Part shown: piece by piece, positions 10,536-34,714 of the stretch
Numbering within the stretch: the stretch's first letter is position 1
How the letters are laid out: each line of letters opens with the position of its first letter
From: Candidatus Gastranaerophilales bacterium
GTDB taxonomy: Bacteria > Cyanobacteriota > Vampirovibrionia > Gastranaerophilales > Gastranaerophilaceae
Direction of reading: 5' to 3'
DNA: 35,795 nucleotides
Assembly (NCBI GenBank): GCA_947630535.1
Contig: CANRHZ010000018.1
Location: 1-35,795 of the forward strand
Notes under the pieces: model-generated
The model's input: the letters and a program-made list of their open reading frames with translations, nothing else
Told to the model about the DNA's origin: nothing
Database searches by the model: none
Translations under genes and position numbers: made by a program

Positions 10536-10557
10536 TTTTTACCTTTCCGTCGTCTTA

Positions 10558-12531
10558 TTATATTTTCCATTGAATCATAACGTATCCGTTCTGGCCGTCA
10601 CCGCCGTTTCCTGCACCGTCTTTAAGACTATATCCGCCGCCGCCGCCGCCTGAGCCTGCTTGGCCCAAAGATGAGGTCTTTGGATTGGGCACAACAAATG
10701 TCGCACTTTGACCGTTCGGGTTATCTATAGTACAGTTATCGTAATAATCAGAAACTCTGTACAATTTTGAATTGATTATAAATTTATTCTTTAACGAATC
10801 GGAACTTGATGAGCCGCTATTAAACAAGCCTTTGAGATTTCCCATAAAATATCCGCCGCAACCTGCCTTTGTTCCAAGCCCCGAAAAGCCGCCAAGACCG
10901 CCAACGTATGCTGATAAGTTTTGATCAATTAAAGTTTTATAGTAAAAACCGTCATAAGCATTATTTAAAGTTGTATCATCATCAATTGTTGCATTTTGAT
11001 AGCCTGTATTGGTACCATTATCAAAACCGTTAAATCCCCCCAATTTGTTATCCGTTGTTCTATTTTTACCATTAATAAAAGTCGTAAACGGTTCATTCGA
11101 AATAAAACTGTATGCTATCCTTCTTGCCTGTGTCTGTGCATTTTGCAAAGTAGGTGTGGCATTTGTGTCTGATACAATATCTGTTTTGTTGTCATCAAAA
11201 AATTTGCCGTTAAGAAAATTACTGTCGCCTGAAGTTAGTGTAGGAAAATATCTTGAATTATCGGTTACAACTCCGTTTAAATAAGGAGTGTTGGTAGAAG
11301 TGTTGCCAGCAGTTCCGCCTTGTCCGCCAATTCCGCCGTTTACCATATAAATAAGGTTATCACCATCATATATAGCACTTGATACACCACCCGCACCTCC
11401 GATACCGCCTGAGGGGCTTGAAGATGATATACCGCCTTTTCCGCCTCTGCCGCCTTTACCTACAACAATTCTATATGTATGTCCGCTTATAACGGGAAAA
11501 CCCGTTATTCTTATCGCACTTCCGCCCGCACCGCCAAAGCCTGCACGCCCTGGGGTTTCTTGTATAACGGTAGCACTAACAAATGCGCTGCCGCCTGTGA
11601 TAGAATTATTTGCAGAAGTTCTGGTTGAAGCACTATAATTGCAAGTGGTACCACTAGTACAAGTATATTTTACGGATGCTCCCATACCGCCTGAACCATA
11701 GCTACCCATTACTCCGTCGGTTTTTCCGCCTGCACCGCCCGCTAGAACCATATTACTATAAACTTTTCCGCTTTCAATAGCCTTTGCACCATCCTTACCT
11801 TCTTTTGAAGGGAAGTAGTTTTTCCCTTCGGTAAGACGACAGGCATCTACGGTTGAACCGCCCGTGCAGGATAGAGCATAGGTGCTTGAGATAGCTATTC
11901 CGTAGAGTTGTGTTAATGATGATGTATTATTACCCTGACCAATTTTAAGAGAAGCATCCGTGCTATTTGCAAGTACATAGCCCGAAGTAGCTGCTGCACT
12001 AAGAGCGTTAGTATATGCCGTACCCCTTAATAAATCAAAAGGAATATCAAAGTCAACTATTGCAGGAGAAGATTTTCCGCCTTTTTGTGGCTGGGGAGTT
12101 GCCGAAGTTGATGTAAATTTGGTACCGTCAGTTCCTTTTGCCGTTAAGAGGTTAATTTTTACCTTTTTTAATAAGTCAAGGTTAATTTGAGTTGAACTTG
12201 CCGCTTGCACAAATTGGCGTCCGCCGCCTGCACCGCCGCCGCCGCCGCCTCCTGCAACAAGAGTAATATTAACTTTATTAACACCCCTTGGGACCGTGAA
12301 GTTGTATTGTGAACAATCACGACTTGAAGTGTTGGTGCCGTTGCTTACAAAAAAACAAAGGTTATTTGTTTGAACTCTGTTACTGTCGTTATATGTAAAT
12401 ACAACACCGTCATTTTGTTTGCCGACTGTTTTATTTGTTACAATAGGTGCAAGCACAATCAGGGCAACCGATAAAATTAATACGGTTATCATAACTTCTA
12501 TTAATGAAAAAGCCGATTTATTTTTTAGCAT
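10558..12531 (-). CDS. Giant glycine-rich prepilin-like protein, second in operon
   Basis: A 657-aa paralogue of its neighbours. The start chosen is the ATG at 12531: it overlaps the upstream stop as TAATG and has GGAG six bases before it; an in-frame ATG at 12543 lacks a comparable site. The leader is MLKNKSA then FSLIEVMITVLILSVAL, so the residue before the cut is Ala, not the usual Gly; Glu +5 is present. Layout matches the family: CSQYNFTVPRGVNKVNITLVAGGGGGGG near residues 75-100, GGAGGSAIRITGFPVISGHTYRI in the middle, GGLGGFSGLGTKAGCGG, and the C-terminal AGSGGGGGGYSLKDG ... NGYVMIQWKI. Translational coupling to the first gene suggests fixed stoichiometry. Function is inferred only as a pilin-like surface protein. 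Confidence 0.85.
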   Translation of the reverse strand: MLKNKSAFSLIEVMITVLILSVALIVLAPIVTNKTVGKQNDGVVFTYNDSNRVQTNNLCFFVSNGTNTSSRDCSQYNFTVPRGVNKVNITLVAGGGGGGGAGGGRQFVQAASSTQINLDLLKKVKINLLTAKGTDGTKFTSTSATPQPQKGGKSSPAIVDFDIPFDLLRGTAYTNALSAAATSGYVLANSTDASLKIGQGNNTSSLTQLYGIAISSTYALSCTGGSTVDACRLTEGKNYFPSKEGKDGAKAIESGKVYSNMVLAGGAGGKTDGVMGSYGSGGMGASVKYTCTSGTTCNYSASTRTSANNSITGGSAFVSATVIQETPGRAGFGGAGGSAIRITGFPVISGHTYRIVVGKGGRGGKGGISSSSPSGGIGGAGGVSSAIYDGDNLIYMVNGGIGGQGGTAGNTSTNTPYLNGVVTDNSRYFPTLTSGDSNFLNGKFFDDNKTDIVSDTNATPTLQNAQTQARRIAYSFISNEPFTTFINGKNRTTDNKLGGFNGFDNGTNTGYQNATIDDDTTLNNAYDGFYYKTLIDQNLSAYVGGLGGFSGLGTKAGCGGYFMGNLKGLFNSGSSSSDSLKNKFIINSKLYRVSDYYDNCTIDNPNGQSATFVVPNPKTSSLGQAGSGGGGGGYSLKDGAGNGGDGQNGYVMIQWKI

Positions 12532-14519
12532 TATCGTCTCCATTCAATCATAACGTATCCGTCCTGACCGTTTCCGCCTGAACCGGAACCGTATAAGATA
12601 TTATATCCGCCGCCGCCGCCGCCTGAGCCTGCTTGCGGTTCAATATTTGTACCTATGGCAGGTATTACAAGTTTTGGACTGTGTCCGTTCGGTGTATTGT
12701 TAGAACAACCTTCGTAATAATCAGTAACGTTGTATGGAACATTATTAATTTTGAATTTATTTATCATGGGAAGTTCTATTTCTGTATTACTCGGAGTGTT
12801 TACTGTCGTTCTTCCGTCAAAATTTCCCATAAAGTATCCGCCGCAGCCCCCTTTAGAACCAAGCCCCGAAAAGCCGCCAAGACCGCCCACATACGAAGGG
12901 AAATTGTTAACAAGCGTTCTATTATAAAAACCGGTTGGAATTGTATAGTCGGCAATATCAAAATAATCAAATCCGCCTGTTCTGTTATCAACAGTGTTGT
13001 TACCGTTCATATTTAATGTTCTATAGGGTTCATTATTAAAAAATGTATAGTTTAAGGCTCTGGCATGGACGCTTTGGCCATTCATCGTTATTGTTGAATC
13101 ATCTCCCAAGGTTAATTTTTCTCTGTCGTATGGGATAGAATTCCCAAATACTTCAGTTAAGTAAATTACTTTTGGGATATTTCTTCCGGATTTGCCTTTA
13201 GCGGTTGTTGCGGCACCCTGACCGCCTGCGCCCCCTGTTACCATATAAACAAGGTTGTTTTCATCATCATATATTGCGCTTGAAACCCCGCTATCACCGT
13301 TTGTGCCGGCCCCAATTGCATGGGCGGACGGTGCCCCTGAATTTCCGCCTTTACCGCCTTTTCCTACATAAATTGTATAAGTATGGCCCGCTTTAACATT
13401 CATTGCAATTATTTTAATTGCAGCCCCGCCGGCACCGCCACCCCCTACATGGGGAGTAGTTACCGTAGTATAAGTAACATCCGCTATACCATTTGTGCCT
13501 GCTTTAGGTGCGGAATATTCTATATATGTACCGTTAGATGCTGCACAAGAGAGGTTATTTTTACTTGAATCATTACATTTTATAAGTTGTAAATCCCCGC
13601 CGCTTCCGCCGTTACCATACACACCGTAAGGAAGTTTGCCGCCTTCACCCCCTTTTATAACAGAACTTATGGGAAGAATTGAAGTTGAAGCCACTGCGCT
13701 TGCGGTTTGTCCTTGAATTGAATTTATAAAGTTTTTATCCTGCAATCTACAGTTATCAATAAAATTATTGATATTAGTACCTAAGGTGTATTGGTTTGTA
13801 CCGATTGTACATGAAACAGTGTATGCACTGCTTGTATTTTGTATGGAATATTTTATGTTGTCTCCTATTGAAATAGAAGGATTTTGGCCGCCTAATATTG
13901 TGATTTTTCCGTCTTTGCTTTCGGAATTTTGTTGAAAAATCGGATTTATGTAGTTATATTTAATATATTCGACAGGAAGCAAAAAGTCGTATATAAGCGG
14001 GGAAGAATTTCCGCCGTTGCCTGCGACTCTTGTTGTTGTATTAACCGCACTTCCTTTTTTTCCTTGCGCCGATAGCAGATTTATTTTAATTGATTTTAGC
14101 ATATCAAGGTTAAACGTTTCGGTTGTTTGAGTTGAAGTTGTATTTGAAATTCTTCGCTCAATATACCTTTCGCCTCCGGCACCGCCTCCGCCGCCGCCTC
14201 CTGCAACAAGAGTAATATTAACTCTATTAACTCCGTTTGGAACGGTAAATGTATATTGTGAACATTCTTTGGTAGGATTGAATGTTTCAGCGTAGTTACT
14301 GTAATTAATATCGGTAAGATAACATCTGTTATCGTTGTTTGTGATGTTATCTGCTTTGTATGTATAAATGACCCCTTCTAATTTGGGCGGAAAAATGCTT
14401 TTTGTTAAAATAGGCGCCATTGCAATCATTAAAAGAGATACAATCAAAATAGACATTAAAACTTCAACCAGAGAAAACCCCAAGTAAGCTTTATTACTTT
14501 TATTATTTATTTCTTTCAT
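12531..14519 (-). CDS. Giant glycine-rich prepilin-like protein, first in operon
   Basis: A 662-aa prepilin-like protein that opens the operon. Leader MKEINNKSNKAYLG is followed by FSLVEVLMSILIVSLLMIAM with Glu at +5. CYLTDINYS and CSQYTFTVPNGVNRVNI precede a Gly run (VAGGGGGGGAGGERY). The middle block (GGGGAGGAAIKIIAMNVKAGHTYTIYVGKGGKGGNSG) and C-terminal block (GGLGGFSGLGSKGGCGGYF, then AGSGGGGGGYNILYG ... DGYVMIEWRR) align with both paralogues, while the Ser/Asn/Thr-rich stretches between diverge. Transcription likely starts near 14560 from a good sigma-70-type promoter; GGA sits nine bases before the ATG. The large C-terminal part is far longer than a normal pilin, so it is more likely a minor or tip-type component or a surface adhesin using the pilin route (inference). 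Confidence 0.85.
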   Translation of the reverse strand: MKEINNKSNKAYLGFSLVEVLMSILIVSLLMIAMAPILTKSIFPPKLEGVIYTYKADNITNNDNRCYLTDINYSNYAETFNPTKECSQYTFTVPNGVNRVNITLVAGGGGGGGAGGERYIERRISNTTSTQTTETFNLDMLKSIKINLLSAQGKKGSAVNTTTRVAGNGGNSSPLIYDFLLPVEYIKYNYINPIFQQNSESKDGKITILGGQNPSISIGDNIKYSIQNTSSAYTVSCTIGTNQYTLGTNINNFIDNCRLQDKNFINSIQGQTASAVASTSILPISSVIKGGEGGKLPYGVYGNGGSGGDLQLIKCNDSSKNNLSCAASNGTYIEYSAPKAGTNGIADVTYTTVTTPHVGGGGAGGAAIKIIAMNVKAGHTYTIYVGKGGKGGNSGAPSAHAIGAGTNGDSGVSSAIYDDENNLVYMVTGGAGGQGAATTAKGKSGRNIPKVIYLTEVFGNSIPYDREKLTLGDDSTITMNGQSVHARALNYTFFNNEPYRTLNMNGNNTVDNRTGGFDYFDIADYTIPTGFYNRTLVNNFPSYVGGLGGFSGLGSKGGCGGYFMGNFDGRTTVNTPSNTEIELPMINKFKINNVPYNVTDYYEGCSNNTPNGHSPKLVIPAIGTNIEPQAGSGGGGGGYNILYGSGSGGNGQDGYVMIEWRR

Positions 14520-17793: not shown

Positions 17794-18708
17794 ATGAAAA
17801 CAACTTTAAACGAAGATTGGATATTAATAACGGGTTTCAGGCTTCTTAAAATCCTTGAGTTGCTAAACAAAAAAGATGCAAAAAAGTCTGAAATAAAAGA
17901 ATATCTTAAAAATATTTTAAATAAAGAGGTCTCGGACGAAACCCTTAAGCTTGATATTAACACCCTTATAAATTCAGGTTTTGAAATTAAAAGGAAACAT
18001 ATAGACAAGCAAACACATTACTGTCTTTCAAATAAAGTAAAGATGTTCAAGCTTACAAAAGAAGAAACTTTTATATTGGATTCAATTAAAAACGCTTCTT
18101 TTGACTTTCTTGAATGGAAAAAAATTCTTTTCTTAAAAGAGTTTTATAAAAGAATATTTGAATTTGCTCAAGATAAAAGGGACTTATTTATCGGGGATTT
18201 TGATTTTTTTGATAGCGTCAATATGGGGCTTGTGGATAAAATCGAAGAAGGAATAAATAAGAAATTATACTGTTACATTTTATACAATTCATATAACAAC
18301 GGAATAAAAGAAGCCCTCGTTATCCCGATACAAATAATTATAAGAAATCATAAGCTCTATATGGACTACATTAAAGACGACTCAAAAGAAGTTTTTACAC
18401 TGAGGTTTGACAACATAAAATCCGCCAAAATAACGGATATTGATGCGTCTTTGGAAATTAAAAAAATCAAAAAAAGTGTTAAGTACAATGTTAAAAAATC
18501 ATATTTTGAAAATAACCCTATGGAAAACTCGGAAAAGGTGCTTAAAAAAACGGCTCTAGTATATGAAATTGAAACTTTAGAAAAGCATGACTTTTTTCTT
18601 GTGCAAAGGCTTTTAACTTTAGGTAAAAATTGTACAAAAATAAGCGACAGTAAAATAAAAAACAAAATTACGGACATTTTAAAAGAAACTTTGGAGGCTT
18701 ATAAATAA
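17794..18708 (+). CDS. HTH-WYL transcriptional regulator, first of pair
   Basis: A 304-aa putative DNA-binding regulator. Residues about 12-70 look like a winged helix (FRLLKILELLNKKDAKKSEIKE ... LKLDINTLINSGFEIKRK), then an insert, then a WYL-type domain near residues 150-230, where HKLYMDYIKDDSKEVFTLRFD stands in place of the usual WYLVGYD...RTFRLDRI. WYL domains bind small ligands or nucleic acid and tune the attached HTH. The core tryptophan is missing here, so the call rests on layout and the FRLD-like motif. The stop codon overlaps the next gene's ATG by one base, so the two paralogues are likely co-translated and may work as a heterodimer, as known for the PafB/PafC pair (analogy only). 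Confidence 0.7.
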   Translation: MKTTLNEDWILITGFRLLKILELLNKKDAKKSEIKEYLKNILNKEVSDETLKLDINTLINSGFEIKRKHIDKQTHYCLSNKVKMFKLTKEETFILDSIKNASFDFLEWKKILFLKEFYKRIFEFAQDKRDLFIGDFDFFDSVNMGLVDKIEEGINKKLYCYILYNSYNNGIKEALVIPIQIIIRNHKLYMDYIKDDSKEVFTLRFDNIKSAKITDIDASLEIKKIKKSVKYNVKKSYFENNPMENSEKVLKKTALVYEIETLEKHDFFLVQRLLTLGKNCTKISDSKIKNKITDILKETLEAYK

Positions 18709-19571
18709 TGTCATCTGTTATAAGTTCAGGCGCAAAAATATTTGATGTAATTGAAGTTCTTTTGTCTAACCCGAAAACAAGAGAAGATGCAACAATGCTT
18801 CTTGAAAAAAAAGGAATTAAGACGGATAAAAATACGATTTCAAAATACATAAGAACCTTAAGGCAATCGGGTTTTGAGATTGATACCAATGAAACATTTA
18901 AAATTCTAAAAACTCCTTTTAAAATCACATTAAATAAAAATGAAGAAAAAGGATATTATTACCTTTTAGAAGCCATAAACTCTCTTTTTGACGGGAATAT
19001 GAAACAAAAAAGCGAGCTTTTTGAAAAAAGAATTGAAAATCTTATAACAAATAAAATCAAAAAAGAAGATGTTAAAATTGACCCTTCAATTTCGGATAAA
19101 ACGCTTTATCTTTTGGAAGAAAACCTTGCAAAGTGGGACTTTGTACTTTTAAAAATAAACTTTTTAGGACACTACTATAAAGTTATCCCGCTTAAATTAA
19201 ATTATAAAACTAACGGCACGTTTTTAAGTTGTTACGATATAAAAGAAAGAAAAAATAAAACCTTAAGGGTTGATTTAATAAAAAATGTTATCTTTGTTAA
19301 AGTTATCAATGAAAATCTTGTAAATCCCTACAATAAAACAGTATTTAAAATTACGGGCAGATTAAAAAAGAATTACATATTAAAATCGGGCGAGGTTGCA
19401 AAATACCTTGATGATGAAGTGATAATAACAAACGTATATGAAGAAAAAGATGAGCTTTTTGACAGGCTTATAAGGTATGGAAAGTATTGCGAGATAATTT
19501 ATCCCGAATCGGACAGAAAAAAATTTAAAAAGAAGCTTGAAGATTTAATTAAGCACTATAATTCAATATAG
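18708..19571 (+). CDS. HTH-WYL transcriptional regulator, second of pair
   Basis: A 287-aa paralogue of the preceding protein. The N-terminal winged helix is seen in KIFDVIEVLLSNPKTREDAT ... TISKYIRTLRQSGFEIDT (residues about 9-60). A WYL-like domain follows near 140-215 with HYYKVIPLKLNYKTNG and FLSCYDIKERKNKTLRVDLI. A C-terminal region with DELFDRLIRYGKYCEIIYP matches the corresponding part of the first protein (FFLVQRLLTLGKNCTKI). Start ATG shares one base with the upstream stop (TAATG). Its 3' end overlaps the convergent TPR gene by 16 bases. Target genes cannot be told from the sequence. Confidence 0.7.
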   Translation: MSSVISSGAKIFDVIEVLLSNPKTREDATMLLEKKGIKTDKNTISKYIRTLRQSGFEIDTNETFKILKTPFKITLNKNEEKGYYYLLEAINSLFDGNMKQKSELFEKRIENLITNKIKKEDVKIDPSISDKTLYLLEENLAKWDFVLLKINFLGHYYKVIPLKLNYKTNGTFLSCYDIKERKNKTLRVDLIKNVIFVKVINENLVNPYNKTVFKITGRLKKNYILKSGEVAKYLDDEVIITNVYEEKDELFDRLIRYGKYCEIIYPESDRKKFKKKLEDLIKHYNSI

Positions 19572-20278
19572 TCCATAAGAATATTCTTTAATTCTTCATC
19601 CTGCGGGTTTACCTGATATGCGGTTTTATAGTAATCAAGCGCAAGCTCCCTGTCATCAAGGAGTTCAAGAATTTTTGCGATATTATAATATGCATCGGCG
19701 CAATAAGGGTTAATTTGAGTTGTATAAATGTATTCATCTGCCGCTTCTTTAAACATTTCCTTTTTTCTTAAGATATCGCCTTTTAAAAAGTGCGAAAGTG
19801 CATTATCGGGGTCAATTTCTATTGCCTCATTTGCAAAAGAAAGCGCCAAATCAAGATTGTTATCGTTTTTAAGTTGAATAGCGCAGGCGAATATAACCTC
19901 TATATTGTTAGGATTTTTTTGATAAATTTCATACAATTTTTCAAAATCAGAACTTCCATAGCTGACTTTTCCGGTTTGAAAAGATATTTCATAGTTTTCT
20001 AAGCAGGGTTTTTGGTTTATTTTTTTTATTTTGCCATAAGGGTTTTTTTGTATATATTCTTTTTCGCCCAACATATTTAAGGGTTTAAAATTAATTGTAT
20101 AGTATAAATCTATAAAGTTCCCGTTCAGTTTGGCTAAATTTTCTTTTACATTATAGAGGGTTTTATCTTCCTTTATTTCAAAATCGTATGAAATTCCCCC
20201 CTCAAACCTTTGGCTTGCAATGGCTTGAAGGTTCATCAAAATCAAAATCAACCCGATTAAGAAAGTCTTTTTTTTCAT
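19556..20278 (-). CDS. Secreted TPR-repeat protein
   Basis: A 240-aa exported protein: signal peptide MKKKTFLIGLILILMNLQAIA, then about 85 residues without clear family, then at least three tetratricopeptide repeats from about residue 110 to 230, best seen in NLDLALSFANEAIEIDPDN, MFKEAADEYIYTTQINPYC and DRELALDYYKTAYQVNPQD. TPRs bind partner proteins. It is the last gene of the mcp-cheA-HD-TPR operon, one base after the HD gene; a scaffold role linked to the chemosensory output or pilus machinery is possible but unproven. It overlaps the convergent WYL gene at the 3' end. Confidence 0.8.
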   Translation of the reverse strand: MKKKTFLIGLILILMNLQAIASQRFEGGISYDFEIKEDKTLYNVKENLAKLNGNFIDLYYTINFKPLNMLGEKEYIQKNPYGKIKKINQKPCLENYEISFQTGKVSYGSSDFEKLYEIYQKNPNNIEVIFACAIQLKNDNNLDLALSFANEAIEIDPDNALSHFLKGDILRKKEMFKEAADEYIYTTQINPYCADAYYNIAKILELLDDRELALDYYKTAYQVNPQDEELKNILMDYIEL

Positions 20279-20279
20279 T

Positions 20280-20876
20280 TCAGCCCTTTATATTAAGTTT
20301 TGTTTTATAGGCAAACTCGAAAAAGTCTTTTTTCTTTTCTAGTGTTTTAAAAACCTCATCGTTCAACATTATATTTTTGTCCAGAGTTAATGTCAAAACG
20401 TAAAGTTGTTTGTCGTATTCAAGGTTGAAATTTTCAACAAGATTTATATGCAGACAATCCATTGCATCCGAAAGCCTAATAATAGAGCCTAAATACAAAA
20501 CTTTTGCTTTGTCTTTTTGATTTAAGCTTTTATAGAGCCTGTGCTTATTTTCATCGGGAAGGCTTTTTCTGTGGTACCTTGCAAGACAAGCTAAAACAGG
20601 TTTATCTTTTTCATCCGTTCCGTCAATATTATGTTCAAGAATAAACTTTGCGCTTGCCTTATGGTGAGAAAGAGAATAGTAATCTTCAAAATAAATGCCT
20701 ATATCATGGAGCATAGCGCCAATTTCAAGAAGGGCTAAATCGTTTTTATTGTCATAGTTTTGAAGAAAAACAAAATCGTGTTTTAATTTATGAAAAAGAA
20801 GCAAAGAAAGCCTTGAAACATTTTTTGAGTGGCTTATATCTTTGTCGTATTTTTTTAAAATTTCTTCAACTTTCAT
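20280..20876 (-). CDS. HD-domain protein, Ppx/GppA C-terminal-like
   Basis: A 198-aa HD-superfamily protein. Metal-site pattern: HSKNVSRLSLLLF near residue 16, AMLHDIGIY near 56, SHHKASAKFILEH near 69-80, ARYHRKSLP near 97 and RLSDAMD near 136. The spacing and LARYHRK match the C-terminal domain of exopolyphosphatase/guanosine pentaphosphatase (Ppx/GppA) without the actin-like phosphatase half. Such stand-alone domains may be phosphohydrolases or regulators; HD-GYP is excluded because no GYP motif is seen. It lies two bases after cheA and one before the TPR gene, so it is co-expressed with the sensory system. Substrate unknown. Confidence 0.75.
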   Translation of the reverse strand: MKVEEILKKYDKDISHSKNVSRLSLLLFHKLKHDFVFLQNYDNKNDLALLEIGAMLHDIGIYFEDYYSLSHHKASAKFILEHNIDGTDEKDKPVLACLARYHRKSLPDENKHRLYKSLNQKDKAKVLYLGSIIRLSDAMDCLHINLVENFNLEYDKQLYVLTLTLDKNIMLNDEVFKTLEKKKDFFEFAYKTKLNIKG

Positions 20877-20878
20877 TG

Positions 20879-23800
20879 TTATTGCCCTTCATTCAATTGA
20901 AGGTTGAGATATTTATTTACCGTTTTAATAAATGACTGTTGTTCAAAGTATTCTTTTTTAATAAATTCCTGAATTCCGAGCCTTAAAAACTCCTCTTTTA
21001 GCCCCGTTTTTTCAATGGATGTTACAACAATAATCGGAATATCTTTTGTGTTCTGATGGGCTTTTAGAATTTTAACAAACTCAATTCCGTTCATATCGCC
21101 CATTTCATAATCGGAAATTATTAAATCGTATTTTTTGGTTTCAAGGAGTTTTAGTGCATCTTTCGGGCTTATTTCAATATCGGGATTATATCCTTGAGAA
21201 GATAAAACATTTTTCATCAATCTTCTTGTTGTAATTGAATCGTCCACAACAAGAATTTTATACTTTGAATTATCTTTAAGCGTGAGGGTTTTTGTTGTAT
21301 TCAATTCGTAAGGGTTAACTTTGTCGTAATTTAAAATATCTGAAATATTTAACAAAAGGCACATTTCGCCGTTTGCAAGAGTTGTAATTCCCGATATATT
21401 TTTAACCCTTAGCATAGGCTCGGGGAGTTTTTTATGAAGAATTTCTTCATCCCCTATTAATTTTTCAATTATGAGCCCTAAAGTGATGCTTTCCGATTTT
21501 AGTACCATTATGGTATATTTATCAATTTCTTCATTTTCATCAATTTTATAATTTAAAATTGATGAAAGCCTGCAAATAGGAATTGCCTCGTTATCGTATA
21601 TAAAATAGTGCCTTCCCTCTCTTTCGTTGATTTCATCGGGGGAAATTCTTAAAACATTATGAATATTCCCCGTAGGTACTGCAAAGAGCTGGTTTTTTTC
21701 TTTTAGAATGAAGGCTTTCATTGTTGCCATTGTGGTTGGCAATTCTAATGTAACGACCGTTCCTTTGTTTTCTTCCGAATATACATCAATTCTTCCGTTC
21801 AACTGTGAGATTTTTGTATGAACAATATCAAGCCCAAGGCCCCTTCCGGATAATTCCGTTACAACTTCACCTGTTGAAAACCCCGGATAGAATATAAAGT
21901 TTGCAAGCTGCTCTTTTGACATATTTTGTGCGGCATCTTTTGTTACAAACCCTTTTTCTATGGCTTTTTGCTTGATTTTTTCTATGTTTATTCCTCTGCC
22001 GTCATCTTTTATGCTTATTAATATTTTATTTTCTTTTTGGGTTGCCTTCAAAATTATGCTCCCCGTTCTTTTTTTGCCAATGCGCTCTCTTTCTTTAGGT
22101 ATTTCAATACCATGGTCAATTGAATTTCTTATAATGTGCATAATGGGGATTTTTATATCTTCAATGATTTTTTTGTCCGCACTGACATCTGCCCCTTCGA
22201 TTGTAAGCTCAATTTCTTTTTCTTTGTCTTTTGAAATATTGTGAACCATCCTCGGAAAAAGGTTAAAAGCGGCGGAAAGAGGCAAAATTCTCATTGATTT
22301 AACCATGTTTTCCATATCCTGGGTGGTCGTGTTTAATTTAATATTGTTTTCCTGCAACTCTTTCATTAAAAAATTCAGATTGTTTAAAATCTCGTTCATT
22401 TTTTCCATATTTGCACTGTGGAATGAAATAAGCTGCTTATTGTATGAAAGAAAAGCGTCTTTTTTTTGGAGAAAATCTACTTCGTTTTTGGTTTCCTGAA
22501 TATATTTTTTTTCATAAAATTTCATATAGTAGCCGATTTTGTGGTAATATTTCTGCAAGTCAATGAGGTTATCCTGCAAAACTTTTACAAGGCTTATGTT
22601 TTCTTGAGATTTTATTCTTGTAACAATTAAGTTACCGATTTGATTAACAAGCTTATCCAGTTTGTCCGAATTTACTCTTAAGGTTTTTATTGAAGTTGTA
22701 TCAAAGCTTTCTGCCCAATCTACGGGTTTTATGGTTCTTTGCGCCCTTTCATATCCTGCGCTCGGGCTTTTTAGTTCATAGTTAATCATTTGTGAAACAA
22801 CAAGCGCCTTTTGATTTAAAAGGTCGATTTCTTCTCCGAAATCAGAATACGTTTTTAAGGCATTAGACTTCGCTTCCGCTATACCCTCACATGAAATCAA
22901 AATTTCTTTTAATGCGCCAAGAGAGTCATCTTCCAGTTTTGAATTACTCTGCTCAAAATTCAAAATAACCGATAAAATTATTTCATATATTTTTTTGAAG
23001 CTATCATCATCAAGTCTTGCTATTATTTCATTTAAAAGGCTTTTTACTTCGGCAAGAGAGTGCTTATTTTTATTAATTTCGCTTATTGTTTCATTTACTT
23101 TATTTACAAGCTCTATAAGTTCTACATTCTTTAATTTTCCTTCATCATTCGGGCTGTCATTTATCTCAAGTCTGCTATCCTGTGTAATCTTATAGGCATT
23201 TTCATAGTAATCTTTAATTTTAATATTGTTCTTTTGCGCAAGAAGGTTAAAGCTTTGTATAAATTCATTAATTTTAACATTAAATTTAAAAAGGGTGTCA
23301 TCATTTCTGTTTTCTTCGTTTACATATTGAGAAGCTAAGTCATTTAATGCAATTGATATGTCAATTAATTCACCGTAGCCGCATTCTTCTATAAGGCTTG
23401 AAAGAGAAGCGGTTATGGAAATTAAATCCTGAAACTGTTCAAAGTTATTGTCAGTTACCGACTTAGAATATATTAAAATTATACTTGTTATATAGTCGCC
23501 GATTTTTTCAAAATTTTTTTCCAAAGCCTGCCTTTTATAAAAGGCCTCGTCGTTTTTGTTTTTTTCATTGCCTTCCTGTTTGCATATAGCATTCAATTTT
23601 TCTATATGAGCTATTGTTTCTTTTGACTTATATTCGCTTTTTTGTTCAATAGTCTTTTTAATTAAAACACCGATAAGCCCGAGAGCGGAAGATATTGTAT
23701 CCGTAATATTTGAATCAACTTTGATTTTTTCTTCTCTTATAAGCCCTAAGACATCTTCAATTTTATGGGCAATATTTTGTATATCGTCAAATCCGAGCAT

Positions 23801-23974
23801 TCTTGCAGAGCCCTTAAGACTGTGGGCATCTCTGAATAAATGCATTGCGATATCGACGCTATTTGGTTTTTTTTCAAGAAGCAAGAGGTTTTTATCCATG
23901 GACTGGAGAATCTCGGTGCTCTCTTGAGAAAATATATTTAAAATTTCATCTAATTCTTCCTGAAGAAATTCCAT
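20879..23974 (-). CDS. cheA: Hybrid CheA histidine kinase with C-terminal receiver
   Basis: A chemosensory histidine kinase of 1031 aa. Domains in order: Hpt at residues 1-120 with phosphoacceptor His51 in AHSLKGSARMLGF; a long helical region (about 150-420); dimerisation helices with KLDKLVNQIGNLIVTRIKSQ; HATPase with HIIRNSIDHGIEIP, DDGRGI and GRGLGLDIVHT; a CheW-like coupling domain from MKAFILKEKNQLFAVPTG; and a receiver (last ~125 residues) with ILVVDDSITTRRLM, ISDYEMGDMNG and a KKEYF-type conserved Lys. The Hpt-kinase-CheW-REC arrangement is the CheA type found in cyanobacterial and type IV pilus chemosensory systems. It follows the MCP gene by 14 bases. No CheR or CheB is present in the window, so adaptation is either elsewhere or absent. 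Confidence 0.95.
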   Translation of the reverse strand: MEFLQEELDEILNIFSQESTEILQSMDKNLLLLEKKPNSVDIAMHLFRDAHSLKGSARMLGFDDIQNIAHKIEDVLGLIREEKIKVDSNITDTISSALGLIGVLIKKTIEQKSEYKSKETIAHIEKLNAICKQEGNEKNKNDEAFYKRQALEKNFEKIGDYITSIILIYSKSVTDNNFEQFQDLISITASLSSLIEECGYGELIDISIALNDLASQYVNEENRNDDTLFKFNVKINEFIQSFNLLAQKNNIKIKDYYENAYKITQDSRLEINDSPNDEGKLKNVELIELVNKVNETISEINKNKHSLAEVKSLLNEIIARLDDDSFKKIYEIILSVILNFEQSNSKLEDDSLGALKEILISCEGIAEAKSNALKTYSDFGEEIDLLNQKALVVSQMINYELKSPSAGYERAQRTIKPVDWAESFDTTSIKTLRVNSDKLDKLVNQIGNLIVTRIKSQENISLVKVLQDNLIDLQKYYHKIGYYMKFYEKKYIQETKNEVDFLQKKDAFLSYNKQLISFHSANMEKMNEILNNLNFLMKELQENNIKLNTTTQDMENMVKSMRILPLSAAFNLFPRMVHNISKDKEKEIELTIEGADVSADKKIIEDIKIPIMHIIRNSIDHGIEIPKERERIGKKRTGSIILKATQKENKILISIKDDGRGINIEKIKQKAIEKGFVTKDAAQNMSKEQLANFIFYPGFSTGEVVTELSGRGLGLDIVHTKISQLNGRIDVYSEENKGTVVTLELPTTMATMKAFILKEKNQLFAVPTGNIHNVLRISPDEINEREGRHYFIYDNEAIPICRLSSILNYKIDENEEIDKYTIMVLKSESITLGLIIEKLIGDEEILHKKLPEPMLRVKNISGITTLANGEMCLLLNISDILNYDKVNPYELNTTKTLTLKDNSKYKILVVDDSITTRRLMKNVLSSQGYNPDIEISPKDALKLLETKKYDLIISDYEMGDMNGIEFVKILKAHQNTKDIPIIVVTSIEKTGLKEEFLRLGIQEFIKKEYFEQQSFIKTVNKYLNLQLNEGQ

Positions 23975-23988
23975 ATTAGATTTTTACT

Positions 23989-25041
23989 CTACTCGCTTAC
24001 TACCGAATTTTTAAACCCTTTATTTATAGAATTGATGTTTTCAAGTTTTTCATATCCGAAATCTACGGTTTTATCCTGTGTTTTAAGATTTATGTTTAAA
24101 TCTTTAACAAAATCATCCGCTTCATCAGCGCCTTTACCTATTTTTCTTGAAATGTAATCAATATCGGTCATGCTTGTTGAAATTTGAGTAATTATTTCAA
24201 TAAGCTTTTCAACATTGCCGCTTATATTGTGTGCAAAATCTATACCGGATTCAATTTCTTTTGTGCCTTCTTCGGTTGCAATAACTGTAGAATTTGTTGT
24301 TTGTTGAATATCCGTAATTAAAGATGTAATTTTGTTTGTTGCCTGTTTCGATTCATCCGCAAGTTTTCTGATTTCACCCGCAACAACGGCAAAACCTTTA
24401 CCGTGTTCACCCGCTCTTGCAGCCTCAACGGCAGCATTCAGCGCAAGGAGATTTGTCTGTTCCGCTATATCTTCAACCGTCCCTATGGTAGATGAAATTG
24501 ATTGAATAAATTCCGACAACTCAAGGATTAATTCGGCTATGGTTTGAATTTTATGCCTTATTGCAAACATTTTATCTATGTTTAATTTAACGGCGGAATA
24601 CTCATCATTTGCCTTATCCAGTGTATCGGATGTCTTTGTTTTTGTTTCCTGAATAATTTTTTCAAGGGTTTCAAGGTTTTCTTTAAGAGCTAAAACATTT
24701 TCTTCCGCATTTTTCAGTTTGCCAAAAGAGTCTTTTATTGTTTCTTTGTGTTCCTTTGTAATATCCTCTAATTCCCTTGTAGTATCGTCAGTTTGGTTTA
24801 GAGAATCAAAAATGATTTTATCAAGTTCTTTTTTATATAGCTTTTTTGTGCTTGAAAAGGCATAATATAAAAGCACCAATAATACCAGCGCAAATGCAAG
24901 AATAGAGAGCAAATCAAGCTCATTTGAGTATTTGCCGAATACCCATGCAAAAAGTATTCCTACAAAAATAATTAAAGTATCCAATGCCTGTTGGATATTG
25001 GATAGTTTATTTACAGTAGTTTTTTTGTACTCTTTTAACAT
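23989..25041 (-). CDS. Methyl-accepting chemotaxis protein without a periplasmic sensor domain
   Basis: A 350-aa chemoreceptor. Two hydrophobic helices (residues about 18-36 and 44-64) are separated by fewer than ten residues, so there is no extracellular ligand-binding domain. A coiled coil leads to the signalling tip, with the highly conserved [20 protein letters not shown] then [21 protein letters not shown] around residues 185-225. It probably senses a membrane or cytoplasmic cue, or another protein. AAAGGTGA lies just before the ATG. It starts the operon with cheA and diverges from the REC-GGDEF gene across 66 bases with overlapping -10 regions. Confidence 0.93.
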
Positions 25042-25044
25042 AAT

Positions 25045-25073
25045 TTCACCTTTTTAAAATAATAATGTATAAT
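25045..25073 (+). promoter_or_regulatory. Probable promoter of the REC-GGDEF operon
   Basis: TTCACC (25045-25050), 17 bases, then TATAAT (25068-25073), giving a leader of about 28 bases. The -35 lies over the ribosome site of the divergent MCP gene, so the two transcription units may influence each other. Confidence 0.5.
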
Positions 25074-25107
25074 GGTTTTGGTATTATTATATTAGATATC
25101 TCGATTA

Positions 25108-26550
25108 ATGGCAAAAAAAGTATTAATAATTGATGATTCAGTTACACAATTGTCCAGCCTGAAAATCTTTTTTAAACGTGAAGGCTTTGAAGTTGACACC
25201 GCAAAAAACGGGGTAGAAGGGTTTATAAAAGTTTATAAAAATACACCCGACGTTATAATTTCTGATGTATTAATGCCGCATCTGGGCGGGTTTCAGCTTT
25301 GCAGACTGCTAAAAAGCAATAAAGAAACTCAAAACATTCCCTTTATAATGTTAACAGTTCTTGACAAAAATTTGGATAAATTTTGGGCAAGCCAATCGGG
25401 AGCGGACATATTTTTAAGAAAAGATTATGAAATGTCGGAAATTGTAAATTCCGCAAAACAAATAATCGAAAAAATGCCCGTTTGTGATTCCGTTAAAGAA
25501 GAATTGGCGGAATATGAAATCGAAGAAGAAGAAATACTTGCCCAGATAAATAAAATTCTTGATGAAGAATTAATGAAAACAACAATTACAAATAAATTCA
25601 GGGAAATTACAAGTTATACAAAAGATGACAAAATAATTGCAGAGAGCATATTTAAAATTTTATCCGCTATAACCGACTACGATATTGCCTGCATTTATTT
25701 TAATTCTCCCGACAGTTCAATCCCAAAAAGAATAATATTCCATGAACAAAAAGTTTTGATTAACGAAGAAATAACAAAAGAAATTTGGCGACAGATGCTT
25801 CCCGATTCAATTAATGACTATACGGAAGAAAAAATTAACTTTGCAAAAGAAAAAAACCTTGAGAGCATAAGTTCAATTGACGATTTCCTCTCCAAAAAAG
25901 AGTTTGATTTTTATTACGAAAATACTCTTATAGGAAAGCTTTCTCTTTACTCAAGAGAAAATCTTCGCTGGAACAAAATGCGCTTTATGCAGACAGTCAA
26001 ATCCGAATTGGATTTATTTTTAAGACTAAGATACCTTTATACAAAAACTTGCTACCTTTCAATAACTGATGAATTAACCCAGCTTTATACAAGACGCCAT
26101 CTAAAATCCGTTCTTGCACAAGAATTTGAACGTGCCAAAAGGTACGGTACCATTGTTACAATTGCTATGGTTGATATTGACGATTTTAAGAAAATAAATG
26201 ACATATACGGACATATGGCGGGTGATTACGTTTTAAAAGAGGTTTCAAAAATATTTATAAAAACTTTAAGAAAAACCGATTTTATATACCGTTACGGCGG
26301 GGAAGAAATATGTATATTAATGCCTGAAACGCTTGTTGAAAAAGCATTTATACCCTTAGAAAGATTAAGAAAAACTATTGAAAACAAGAACTTTCTTTTT
26401 GAAGGAAACAAAATAAATGTAACGGTAAGTATAGGTGCCGCCACCTTCGGAAAAGAGATGAGAGACGCAAACGAGCTCATTGAAAAGGCTGATGCTGCAC
26501 TTTACAAATCAAAACACGGCGGCAAAAATAAAGTAACTATGGATGTTTAA
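25108..26550 (+). CDS. Response regulator diguanylate cyclase (REC-GGDEF)
   Basis: A 480-aa output protein that likely makes cyclic di-GMP when phosphorylated. Receiver at residues 3-120 with IIDDSVTQ, phosphoacceptor Asp in ISDVLMPHLGGF (about residue 52) and conserved Lys in FLRKDYE. A middle region (about 150-300) may be GAF-like. The GGDEF domain (about 320-478) has DELTQLYTRRHL, MVDIDDFKKIND and the active-site YRYGGEEICILMPE; RKTD five residues before GGEE forms the inhibitory I-site, so product inhibition is expected. The CheA-REC encoded divergently is the obvious kinase partner, similar in concept to Wsp-type pathways. Its stop overlaps the next ATG as TAATG. No Shine-Dalgarno sequence is obvious. 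Confidence 0.93.
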   Translation: MAKKVLIIDDSVTQLSSLKIFFKREGFEVDTAKNGVEGFIKVYKNTPDVIISDVLMPHLGGFQLCRLLKSNKETQNIPFIMLTVLDKNLDKFWASQSGADIFLRKDYEMSEIVNSAKQIIEKMPVCDSVKEELAEYEIEEEEILAQINKILDEELMKTTITNKFREITSYTKDDKIIAESIFKILSAITDYDIACIYFNSPDSSIPKRIIFHEQKVLINEEITKEIWRQMLPDSINDYTEEKINFAKEKNLESISSIDDFLSKKEFDFYYENTLIGKLSLYSRENLRWNKMRFMQTVKSELDLFLRLRYLYTKTCYLSITDELTQLYTRRHLKSVLAQEFERAKRYGTIVTIAMVDIDDFKKINDIYGHMAGDYVLKEVSKIFIKTLRKTDFIYRYGGEEICILMPETLVEKAFIPLERLRKTIENKNFLFEGNKINVTVSIGAATFGKEMRDANELIEKADAALYKSKHGGKNKVTMDV

Positions 26551-27554
26551 TGAATAACGCTCTTACAGAATACAAAGAATATAGCTACATATTTTTTTCG
26601 GTAGGGACATTCAACTATGCGTTTAATGCCAGATACGTTCTTGCAATAACGCAGTTAACGGAATTAGAATACCCCGAATCAATGCCTGATTATATTGCGG
26701 GGCTTTTTGAATATAATAATTCAATAATAAAAATAATAGATTTAAGGCATATCCTAAAAATTGAACCCGAAAATTACAGTATAAATTCTAAAATAATTAT
26801 CCTAAAAGCAAAAAATGAAACTTTTGGAGTTATTATAGATGAAATTAAAGACATAAGAAGAATAAATTCCATCTCGTTTAATCCTCCCCCCTATGACAGG
26901 GAGAAATCTTATCTGGAGGCAATTTATACCGACGGTTCTTATTCCGCCACAATCGTAAACATAGAAAACATTGAAGCAAAAATAAACTCTAAAGAAAACG
27001 AGGATATAAAAAGCAATAAATCCGCCTCTTTGTTTCTTCCAAGCGACCTCAATTCAAAAGAAATTCTGCACAGAAGAAAACTTCATTACTTAAAAAAAGC
27101 TAAACAGGGAACTTATGAAATAATAAAAAGCAAAGATGCCTATATAACTTTTCTTTTGGATAAGGATACATGTTGCGTTAAAATTACTCACATTGCGGGC
27201 TTTTACAAACTTATAAACATGAAAATCACAAAAATTCCCTGTACTCCTGATTTTATAGTGGGTGTAGTAAGCATTAAAGGAAGATATATAACCGTTATAG
27301 ACCTTTTAAAATACACCGAAAATAAAAACACCAATATAACAAAAGATACAAACATAATCGTCCTTGAATACGAGGACTATGAAATAGGAATTCTTGCGGA
27401 TTCAATAGGGGAAACCATTGATATAGATGAAACCATATTAAATCAAAAACAGGAAAATTCTTCCTGCCTTACGGAACATGTTATAAACGACAGTATGCAT
27501 CTGTTTTTGGATATTAAAAAATTCTTCGGCGAAGAAAAACTTTACATCAGCTAA
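26550..27554 (+). CDS. Double CheW coupling protein
   Basis: A 334-aa protein of two consecutive CheW-like domains, which link chemoreceptors to CheA. Domain one, residues about 10-150, has YAFNARYVLAITQ, MPDYIAGLFEYNNSIIKIIDLR and FGVIIDEI. Domain two, about 200-332, has VKITHIAGFYKLINM, TPDFIVGVVSIKGRYITVIDLL and YEIGILADSIGETI. These GxxxxxGxxxxVIDL patterns are characteristic. Two CheW domains in one chain is less usual than one and may bridge two array partners. It is coupled by TAATG to the cyclase gene and is presumably made with it. Confidence 0.88.
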   Translation: MNNALTEYKEYSYIFFSVGTFNYAFNARYVLAITQLTELEYPESMPDYIAGLFEYNNSIIKIIDLRHILKIEPENYSINSKIIILKAKNETFGVIIDEIKDIRRINSISFNPPPYDREKSYLEAIYTDGSYSATIVNIENIEAKINSKENEDIKSNKSASLFLPSDLNSKEILHRRKLHYLKKAKQGTYEIIKSKDAYITFLLDKDTCCVKITHIAGFYKLINMKITKIPCTPDFIVGVVSIKGRYITVIDLLKYTENKNTNITKDTNIIVLEYEDYEIGILADSIGETIDIDETILNQKQENSSCLTEHVINDSMHLFLDIKKFFGEEKLYIS

Positions 27555-27575: not shown

Positions 27576-28166
27576 ATGAAAAATAAACTAATTAAAATCT
27601 TAATTTTATCTTTTACATTTTTATATTCGTTAATTTTGCCCTCATTCGGGGAAGATTTTCAAAAGATATATGACAACCTTGAAGAAGCAGATTTTGAATA
27701 TATATTCGGAATTGACCCCTATCAGGCGGAAGAATACACTCAGTATATGTTTTCTCCTTACCCTCTTTTAAGAACGGGAGTCACTTTTATTTTTAAAGGA
27801 ACAAAAATTCCCCCCGGATATTATCTTTTAACCCCAAGAAAGCATGAAGGAAGAACCTACGTCCTATTTAAAGAACAAGGCAGGGTTAAATATATGGTTC
27901 CAACCTATAATGTCGACATTACAACGGAAGAATTCTATGATGAATACATTCCAAAACCCAAACAAACCAAATGGAAAAAATTCAAAGTTAAAGTTTCAGA
28001 TACAGTTGGCGCTATGTTTCCCAAACAAACCCAAAGAAAACCCATCCCAAAAACTTATATGGAAATAAACGATATAGACGGTGAATTTTTTCAGGTTATA
28101 CTCTATTATGGTACAGGTAAATATTATTTAATTTTCAAACAGGAAGAAGATAAAGAGAACAAATGA
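27576..28166 (+). CDS. Secreted hypothetical protein, 196 aa
   Basis: Family not recognised. A signal peptide (MKNKLIKILILSFTFLYSLIL, ending near SFGED) is followed by a compact, Tyr-rich and beta-looking region with GVTFIFKGTKIPPGYYLLTPR (residues about 68-88) and a C-terminal YYGTGKYYLIFKQE. No membrane helix after the signal and no lipobox cysteine, so a periplasmic or surface-exposed soluble protein is likely. It sits 21 bases after the double CheW gene and overlaps the next gene by four bases (ATGA). Confidence 0.75.
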   Translation: MKNKLIKILILSFTFLYSLILPSFGEDFQKIYDNLEEADFEYIFGIDPYQAEEYTQYMFSPYPLLRTGVTFIFKGTKIPPGYYLLTPRKHEGRTYVLFKEQGRVKYMVPTYNVDITTEEFYDEYIPKPKQTKWKKFKVKVSDTVGAMFPKQTQRKPIPKTYMEINDIDGEFFQVILYYGTGKYYLIFKQEEDKENK

Positions 28167-29017
28167 AAAAACTGTTTAGTGTGTTTTTAATAGTTTTTAC
28201 GATTTTTATAAGTGCCGATATGTGCGCTTATTCAAGCGAAAACAAAGACTATGACAATATTATTAAAATAACAAAAAAAATGCGCAGGCTCTCTGATAAA
28301 AATAAAATAGACGAGCTTATGAAATTTTATTCTAATGACTATAAAAGTTTTGACGGATACAATAAAAACGAGATGGCAGAAATTTTTCTTATGGCATCAA
28401 AACTTTATCCCGAATCAAAAACAAAAGAAACAATTAAAAAAATAGAAAATGACGGCGATTTGATTAAAGTATATATGATGGAAAATTCCAAAACAAAGCT
28501 TGATGCAAAAGGACAGGATGCAATGTATGCCATCAACAATAAAATAAAAGGTCTAATGGAATCTTATGCCGATTACTGCATAATCTATAAAAAAGATGAA
28601 GAAGGCTTCAAAGTTGTGGGAGATGAAATATATGATGAAACCACCTCAATTAAATACGGCGAAGCGCTTGAAACCAACCTTGAGCTTGAAACCCCGAAGA
28701 ACATTAAGCCTAATGAAGAATATACGGTTAAAATGTCAATTGATATGCCCTTTAACAGGTTTGTGGTCGGTTCAATAGGGCATGACAACATTGAATATCC
28801 TCCCAATAAAGTTCCTGACCCCTTTAGAGCCATAAACTCAACGGGTGTATTAGAAAGAGTTATGATAGCAAATTCAAAAGGGAAAAATGAATATGCAAAC
28901 TCATCTTTTGTTTTCTTTGCGCCGTTCACCAAAAAATCCAAAGAAGCTTCAATTTCAGGCATGGGGATTTATATAAAAAGAATTAATACGGCTAAAGAAG
29001 AAAAAAATGAACTGTAA
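28163..29017 (+). CDS. Secreted hypothetical protein, 284 aa
   Basis: Signal peptide MKKLFSVFLIVFTIFISADM, with a Cys soon after (DMCAYSS) that could be a weak lipobox but does not fit the L-[AS]-[GA]-C pattern well. Residues about 25-150 resemble an NTF2/SnoaL-like fold by pattern (helix, MKFYSNDYKSFDGYNKNEM, then strands YADYCIIYKKDEEGFKVVGDEI), a low-confidence reading. A second part (about 165-275) has beta-like sequence with PNEEYTVKMSIDMPFNRFVVGSIG. Overlaps the previous gene (ATGA) and lspA (11 bases), so it is part of a long + operon. Confidence 0.72.
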   Translation: MKKLFSVFLIVFTIFISADMCAYSSENKDYDNIIKITKKMRRLSDKNKIDELMKFYSNDYKSFDGYNKNEMAEIFLMASKLYPESKTKETIKKIENDGDLIKVYMMENSKTKLDAKGQDAMYAINNKIKGLMESYADYCIIYKKDEEGFKVVGDEIYDETTSIKYGEALETNLELETPKNIKPNEEYTVKMSIDMPFNRFVVGSIGHDNIEYPPNKVPDPFRAINSTGVLERVMIANSKGKNEYANSSFVFFAPFTKKSKEASISGMGIYIKRINTAKEEKNEL

Positions 29018-33735: not shown

Positions 33736-34714
33736 CTATCTTTTTATGCAGCGGACACTTAAATTACCGCTTTGTTCTGTTGTTTGGATTTCTCCGTCTC
33801 TTTCATCAATTACCCATGACATTGTTTTTCCGTTTACGGTAGAAGCCGAACCTGACCAATATCCGAGTTCATCAAGGTTGCCAATAAAGACTTTATTTAC
33901 ATAAAGCGACATAAGTTCATATTTATCGGGTAATCTGGTATCTTCATCCTGCTTTACGCATGCACTTGCTGCATCAAGTGTTCCTGAGTCATTTGAATTT
34001 ATCGGAAATTCAGCTCCGCCGTCTAAATCGGAGGATGCGGGAATGGGGGCTGCAACAACCGAATTTGAATTATAAAAAACGGTCATAAAGCCGACATCTT
34101 TCCCCACTTCATTCGGACCTTTCAGCCCGTTAAGGTCATATACCATATTGGCACACACAAACCATCCGATATAATTTCCGGCATACGGGTTTTCTGAAAT
34201 ACAACCGGGATTATAAAATACGGCAATTGATTCACCGTTAACGGTTTCAAAAGCGGCTGCATCGGGATTATAAAAGTGTATGCCCTCACGGTTATCAGAG
34301 TAAATATCAAAGAAATGTTTCGGAAAATCACGACTTTCTCCGTCCATTGTTATTACTGATGAAGGTATGCCGCAAGCTTGCATATTATTTACATTGCAGA
34401 TGTTTTGAACACGGTATACTTTTGATAAGCCTTCAATAATAAAGGCTTCAGATGCATTTCTTGCAGTTTCGTTTTCATCATCAATATTTAATCCATACCC
34501 TGAAACACTATCCATCTCACCAATTGCTTGGCTCATTCTGGCGTATAATGCTTTTCTTTGAGCATTCCATGCTTTGTCATTGACGTTCACAAGTAAACTT
34601 GGTAAAGTTATAGCTGCAACGATACCAATAATCGTTAGTGTTATCAATACTTCGGCTAAAGTAAATCCAATCAATCCCTTGGGGGGGGGGTAACAACTTT
34701 TTCAAAATAGACAT
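33736..34714 (-). CDS. Prepilin-like variable protein with a frame-breaking poly-C tract
   Basis: A member of the same prepilin family as both window-edge genes. The signals for expression are intact: promoter at 34750-34778, GGGAG eight bases before ATG at 34714. Reading from that ATG gives MSILKKLL then prolines from a ten-C run, which shifts the frame; it would stop at TGA 34577-34579 after 45 residues. With nine C it would read MSILKKLLPPPKGLIG and then FTLAEVLITLTIIG, a good class III leader, into the 300-plus-residue body. The body has NVNDKAWNAQRKALYARMSQ, a variable middle, and the YWSGS ... SVRCIKR end. A TTG at 34674 lies inside the leader and would remove the basic residues. So this copy looks OFF in the assembled sequence; a homopolymer sequencing error is the other reading. 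Confidence 0.8.
34681..34690 (-). repeat. Ten-base poly-C tract inside the prepilin leader (phase-variation candidate)
   Basis: On the - strand ten C follow the eighth codon of the prepilin. Multiples of three put ATG in frame with the pilin; ten does not. Such tracts slip readily during replication. It is the only run of this length in an AT-rich window, where G or C runs are otherwise short. Confidence 0.8.

Follow-up and report, generated by a model that had tools for sequence, protein, structure and literature searches.

The DNA analysed here (the window: 35,795 nucleotides, contig 18 of an assembly, G000, of 1,851,621 bases in 72 contigs that is 98.5% complete) comes from a member of the Gastranaerophilales, the gut-living, non-photosynthetic sisters of cyanobacteria. 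Open reading frame calls and Pfam matches define, at positions 19556-27554, a chemosensory gene cluster arranged as two divergent arms. The minus-strand arm comprises a methyl-accepting chemotaxis protein (MCP) of 350 residues (23989-25041; PF00015, E-value 1.8e-38), a 1031-residue CheA (20879-23974) in which Hpt, H-kinase_dim, HATPase and CheW domains are followed by a C-terminal receiver (REC), a 198-residue HD-domain protein (20280-20876) and, as its final gene, a 240-residue tetratricopeptide-repeat (TPR) protein (19556-20278). The plus-strand arm consists of a 480-residue diguanylate cyclase (25108-26550), composed of a receiver (Response_reg, 1.1e-20), a GAF-like middle domain and a GGDEF domain (4.4e-43), and a 334-residue coupling protein with two CheW domains (26550-27554; PF01584 over two stretches, 3.9e-41). 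An earlier, sequence-only reading of this DNA had placed an MCP, a CheA-REC, a REC-GGDEF protein and a two-domain CheW back to back; all four genes are indeed present, and the TPR and HD genes, which it did not name, fall within the same interval.

The divergent start codons of the MCP and cyclase genes are separated by 66 bp (25042-25107). The overlapping divergent promoters that had been proposed for this gap are unsupported as stated, a promoter scan of the 66 bp having found 3 sites compared with 2.2 +/- 1.6 in shuffled sequences. Since the length of the gap is kept at 62-66 bp in all five genomes of the window's genus, a single control region common to both arms is plausible, and receptor and output might in that way be co-expressed.

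The arrangement was followed through 241 genomes of the order, in which MCP and CheB matches were counted above the family cut-off; genus (g) and family (f) codes are those of our analysis tool, g1 being the window's genus. MCP is present in 121 of these genomes and CheB in 15. From 108 of the 121 MCP-positive genomes we annotated one locus each encoding an MCP of the window's hairpin type (described below), the window included. The divergent layout, with the MCP head to head with a cyclase or a double CheW, recurs at 102 of the 108 loci and the grouping is therefore beyond chance; conservation in relatives had been named by the sequence-only reading as a check on the cluster. CheA was found at 106 loci and a homologue of the double CheW at 101. 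Six loci are without a divergent partner: at L156 and L163 the MCP lies close to a contig end, so that absence there is unsure, while at L157, L158, L164 and L199 the partner may be located elsewhere. In a tree of 103 CheA core sequences, made by a quick method with support from the Shimodaira-Hasegawa-like approximate likelihood ratio test (SH-aLRT) only, the 26 genus groups need 25 changes, the smallest number possible, which fits vertical descent; the deep forks of this tree are weak, and g24, g20, g30 and G012 form long branches.

The hydrophobic segments of the window MCP, as judged by hydropathy, span residues 18-36 and 44-62 and are 7 residues apart, leaving no room for a periplasmic domain. 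With neither a ligand-binding domain nor a HAMP match, and with a canonical signalling tip, the protein is a two-transmembrane hairpin, in agreement with the earlier claim that it has no outer sensor domain. The signalling tip is near-invariant among 95 hairpin receptor sequences, of which a simple hydropathy rule assigns two hydrophobic segments to 80, one to 14 and three to a single protein, the gaps between segments being mostly 2-9 residues. The methylation consensus is seen in 2 of the 108 hairpin receptors, whereas 20 of the 21 longer MCPs compared have it, these being the ones of more than 400 residues within the loci retrieved and not a survey of the order. CheB-positive genomes account for fourteen of the 108 loci, and 13 of these fourteen hairpin receptors lack the consensus. 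Since it is missing even where the genome has CheB, non-adaptation looks like a property of this class of receptor and not merely a matter of absent genes. An exception in genomic context is G026, which indicates that adaptation was not beyond reach in every lineage. At its locus (L164:9991-11828) CheR and CheB immediately precede the hairpin MCP and CheA-REC, with neither cyclase nor double CheW adjoining; this gene order is possibly the ancestral arrangement.

A genome-wide family search of G000 yields one MCP match and three CheW domains, all inside the cluster, and no CheB match. The CheR family is represented by a single PF01739 match of 57.8 bits, to an unlinked, generic methyltransferase of 336 residues (L001). 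As a hidden CheR this protein was rejected: the alignment covers only positions 1-91 of the domain's 195, and among CheB-negative genomes CheR-like matches of this kind occur more often where an MCP is lacking (93 of 120) than where one is present (62 of 106). Across the 241 genomes the 21 strongest CheR matches (at least 169.5 bits) fall in 14 of the 15 CheB-positive genomes; in the fifteenth, G005, the match scores 98.4 bits and is cut by a contig end, and the best match outside the CheB-positive genomes reaches 108.3 bits. The earlier statement that CheR and CheB are missing is thus upheld genome-wide for CheB and, for CheR, but for an unlinked half-domain match. It had also reported no CheY. 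There is none at the locus and, since only one of the 20 receiver matches in G000 lies in a frame shorter than 200 residues and that frame adjoins a HisKA kinase, no spare, dedicated CheY is evident in the genome. That single-domain receiver, on contig C20, was considered as a hidden CheY and rejected, as it sits between the HisKA kinase and an MshEN ATPase, although cross-talk between it and the cluster may occur. The histidine kinase, stand-alone receiver and MshEN-T2SSE ATPase stand there in a row (L276:6603-10350) and possibly form a separate phosphorelay acting on a pilus-type ATPase. A complete second chemotaxis cluster, the finding that would have told against the earlier account, was searched for by families in G000 and not found; as far as these families show, the cluster is the only chemosensory system of the genome.

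In CheA, the Hpt residues H51, K54 and G55 and the N-box residues N617 and H621 are invariant in 89 of 89 homologues. The window cyclase carries receiver residues D9, D10, D53, T83 and K105 and, in its GGDEF domain, the signature GGEEI, the Mg-binding Asp in VDIDDF and an RKTD inhibitory site (I-site); catalytic and inhibitory sites are both complete and, from its sequence, the enzyme looks active. D10, D53 and K105 are kept in all 50 cyclase homologues examined, degenerate ones included. An AlphaFold2 model built from 12 sequences (mean predicted local distance difference test score, pLDDT, 84; predicted template modelling score, pTM, 0.52) shows the receiver first, then a helix, then an alpha/beta domain whose elements follow a GAF-like order, and lastly GGDEF. 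The best foldseek matches to this model are to PleD of Caulobacter (9g86 and 2v0n), followed by PA3702 (3bre), which we take to be WspR, and by Pseudomonas syringae WspR (3i5a). PleD is likewise a receiver-controlled GGDEF protein with an I-site; it has a second receiver where the window protein has the GAF-like domain, and its pathway is two-component rather than chemosensory.

The middle domain is likely, but not proven, to be a GAF domain, since GAF_2 is matched weakly and in only 6 of 24 homologous middle domains (best E-value 4.9e-4), with SpoVT_C matching equally many, and the window's own domain obtained no Pfam match in this 24-domain scan. A middle-domain profile run on 386 genomes of the phylum gave strong matches (E < 1e-18) in 46, all of this order, and the seven closest relatives of the cyclase (L007-L013), at 69-81% identity, are all from Candidatus Gastranaerophilales. 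GAF-like-GGDEF proteins of 328-352 residues that have no receiver (L269, L270 and L271) are encoded in three genomes, of g28 and g22, without an MCP match.

We consider it probable that the cluster is a one-receptor, non-adapting chemosensory relay, with the signal passing from MCP through CheA and the receiver-GGDEF protein to cyclic di-GMP (c-di-GMP). The membrane-hairpin MCP, lacking an outer domain, would partner the double CheW and CheA, and a stimulus presumably sensed through the membrane-embedded hairpin would alter autophosphorylation of CheA at His51. CheA proteins hand phosphate to receivers; here the recipient would be the receiver of the REC-GAF-GGDEF protein, whose synthesis of c-di-GMP would be switched on and then curbed by the product itself through the RxxD site. 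CheA's own receiver would probably serve as a phosphate sink, or as a second branch, that ends the signal in place of receptor methylation. Finally, c-di-GMP would act through a PilZ protein or MshEN-type ATPases on pilus activity or attachment. The route from CheA to REC-GGDEF and c-di-GMP had been put forward already in the sequence-only reading: it suits the window, where a cyclase with complete residues stands beside CheA, and does not serve as a general account, the cyclase being degenerate or absent at 64 of the 108 loci.

Candidate readers of c-di-GMP are present. A PilZ search of G000, another of the checks named earlier, found one PilZ protein (C2), and there are two T2SSE ATPases with MshEN domains, one on C31 (717 residues, followed by what appears by eye to be a PilC-like gene) and the other on C20. 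These are the likely readers in a genus in which none of the five sampled genomes, G000 included, has a flagellin match. In this genus c-di-GMP is the output that can be seen, and type IV pili are the probable final target of the cluster.

The closest known parallel is the Wsp system of Pseudomonas, of the ACF class, which consists of WspA, B, D, E and R with WspC (CheR) and WspF (CheB). Both have a dedicated MCP, a CheA with a C-terminal receiver, two CheW domains and a receiver-GGDEF output. In contrast to Wsp, the present cluster has no periplasmic receptor domain, its CheW pair is fused, a GAF-like domain intervenes between REC and GGDEF, and the genes form divergent operons with HD and TPR neighbours. 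Having no CheB match and no convincing CheR, it is not a member of the Wsp group; by analogy, it looks like a Wsp-like core from which the remainder has been removed. A review (PMC8846402) states that WspE phosphorylates and thereby activates WspR, and that the periplasmic domain of WspA can be swapped with surface sensing retained, the transmembrane region being suspected as the sensor.

The cyclase is the variable part of the cluster. When intact and degenerate forms are distinguished by the pattern GG[DE]E, it is intact at 43 of the 108 loci, degenerate at 21, absent from the locus at 43 and cut by a contig end at one. Degenerate forms are found at 15 of 17 g18 loci, the remaining two being without a cyclase, and at all six of g19, while the intact form is kept in the five genomes of the window's genus and in the single g27 genome. 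Read from the CheA tree, loss or decay occurred at least in g14+g23, g21+g25, g24 and g18/g19, with 11 parsimony changes of cyclase state when rows lacking a divergent partner are included. Mean pairwise identities of receiver and GGDEF, respectively, are 63% and 45% in g18, 64% and 64% in g19, 84% and 76% in g1, 72% and 85% in g15+g16, and 58% and 60% in f2-f7. Such a comparison alone is a weak test of selection, since g1, with intact cyclases, gives 84% and 76% and g19, with degenerate ones, equal values; the excess of receiver over GGDEF identity in g18 is suggestive, not decisive.

Several of these observations weigh against the proposed relay. Because MCP, CheA and CheW persist where the cyclase is absent or degenerate, some other output of the core must exist there, and perhaps exists in the window genome also. 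The GAF-like domain may add an input of its own. G000 contains 9 GGDEF matches, so that the window cyclase need not dominate the c-di-GMP pool. Moreover, since MCP strongly accompanies flagellin, a purely pilus-related role is not general in the order; the association points to an ancestral flagellar link. A wider scheme, which we offer as doubtful, would accommodate the decay: in much of the gut family the sole chemosensory device would be a hairpin-only, never-adapting receptor whose conserved output is a phosphorylated receiver (or receiver-GAF scaffold), the receiver-GGDEF protein having become a phosphorylation-controlled binding protein where its cyclase half decayed and its receiver residues stayed, and the window's genus representing the ancestral enzymatic state.

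The flagellar link also invites the explanation that the system first served to steer or stop flagella, which this genus would since have lost, and that it survives here as a remnant in which the cyclase is a secondary branch. Over the 241 genomes, which are not independent, 94 have both an MCP of any type and flagellin, 27 an MCP only, 3 flagellin only and 117 neither; MCP thus occurs in 94 of 97 genomes with flagellin and in 27 of the 144 that have none. Within family f1 a single MCP match was counted in 71 of the 76 genomes that carry flagellin, and CheB exceeds the cut-off only in G138. A decaying relic, however, would hardly keep the GGDEF signature, I-site, receiver and checked CheA residues that g1 keeps with no flagellin match in any of its five genomes. 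Furthermore, in f2-f4 and in G138 the cluster exists beside a separate flagellar-type set composed of a receiver-less CheA, a single CheW, longer MCPs, CheR and CheB, and so is not the ordinary flagellar pathway there. G000 itself differs from flagellar (F class) chemotaxis in having neither a CheB nor a flagellin match in the genome and no CheY at the locus. On balance we regard a flagellar remnant as unlikely. A second, more distant type of CheB-CheR, unlinked to the cluster, occurs elsewhere in f2-f5 genomes (as a pair in L289-L296, and in L297 as CheR alone), that of L296 adjoining the flagellar-type set.

A system like the cyanobacterial Pix/Pil (tax) systems, which serve phototaxis by type IV pili, would have CheA and its own receiver act directly on the pili, with the cyclase an accessory that can be dropped. 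This appears distinctly improbable, although cyanobacteria are the sister group, T2SSE ATPases are present in the genome, and g14 and g23 keep CheA-REC without a cyclase. PixL, like the window's CheA, carries a receiver, and a Synechococcus elongatus control gave matches to MCP and CheW and none to CheR or CheB, a likeness to the present cluster. The receptors differ, PixJ1 being a photoreceptor where the window has a hairpin receptor together with a diguanylate cyclase. Pix/Pil systems have the response regulators PixH and PixG, of which PixG carries a PATAN domain (PMC5812497); among the ten proteins of the window locus there is neither a PATAN-type regulator nor a stand-alone CheY-like protein. 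In g21, 11 of the 14 full-length CheA sequences show no recognisable receiver, yet MCP and CheA persist (as does CheW, bar one locus), and the association of MCP with flagellin across the order again argues against direct pilus control. For the window, the relay ending in c-di-GMP is preferred over both alternatives.

The pairing of kinase and cyclase is not unique to the order, as a Thermotogaceae locus (L014) encodes, in one run with CheR, CheA-REC and CheB, a protein related to the cyclase over its full length (31% identity). That locus differs in keeping CheB and CheR (the latter with a weak TPR match below the cut-off), in having its genes on one strand, in the 261-residue protein without a Pfam match at the position of CheW, and in that no MCP was noticed by eye within 12 kb. 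A receiver on CheA and REC-GGDEF outputs are both known already; the former is found mostly in the F3, F5, ACF and Tfp classes according to a published account (PMC10782961). What seems new is that these parts are combined as the only system of a genome, with neither adaptation nor a sensor domain. In searches limited to open-licence papers, no title or abstract opening on Gastranaerophilales or Melainabacteria chemotaxis, flagella and c-di-GMP was seen to describe the cluster.

A published study (Di Rienzi 2013, PMC3787301) stated, from few genomes, that gut types of Melainabacteria lack chemotaxis genes; a termite genome paper reports genes for flagella and for chemotaxis. The former statement is qualified by the presence of MCP above cut-off in 121 of 241 genomes of the order. 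The stimulus of WspA is called a mystery in the review cited above (PMC8846402). The present cluster comes close to a natural reduced experiment, in which the hairpin, the kinase and the cyclase are retained while ligand domain and methylation are missing, and it could serve for a direct test of transmembrane sensing if rebuilt in laboratory E. coli. The order further offers a natural series from active through degenerate to no cyclase, with the same receptor and kinase.

Among the accompanying genes, the HD protein (PF21447 2.5e-20; HD 9.5e-6) resembles domain III of the exopolyphosphatase Ppx/GppA and matches exopolyphosphatase 8jgo in the PDB at 5.3e-11. Its residues H16, H57 and D58 are present in 43 of 43 homologues and H71, H102 and D137 in 42. 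It is encoded on the MCP strand at 44 of the 108 loci, and was rejected as a fixed phosphodiesterase partner of the cyclase because its presence does not track that of the cyclase: g14 and g23 have HD without cyclase, g18 a degenerate cyclase without HD. The TPR protein (Pfam TPR_1/TPR_2) has an apparent signal peptide by eye; a TPR match on the CheA strand is seen at 13 of the 108 loci, and 12 of these 13 belong to g1, g19 or g27. Nine g21 loci (L195, L199, L202, L203, L204, L209, L217, L222 and L224) encode a CheA of 871-893 residues without a receiver; these loci lack a cyclase, their genomes have no flagellin match, and the kinase residues of CheA are intact.

Downstream of the plus-strand arm, the proteins at 27576-28166 and 28163-29017 obtained no name in the Pfam scan. 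Two consecutive WYL/HTH-like regulators (17794-19571; weak Pfam matches) face the cluster's TPR end in convergent orientation, a pair kept beside the cluster in g1, at several g19 loci and at the g27 locus. Further away, positions 8166-14519 encode three tandem glycine-rich proteins of 661-789 residues with type IV pilin-like N-termini, the middle one, which alone was scanned, giving an N_methyl match. Near the two ends of the window, three proteins (40-948, 33736-34674 and 34821-35762) share near-identical pilin-type N-termini and have divergent C-termini; one of them matches Lcl_C weakly (23.5 bits, cut-off 34.9), and together they look like a variable, lectin-tipped pilin family.

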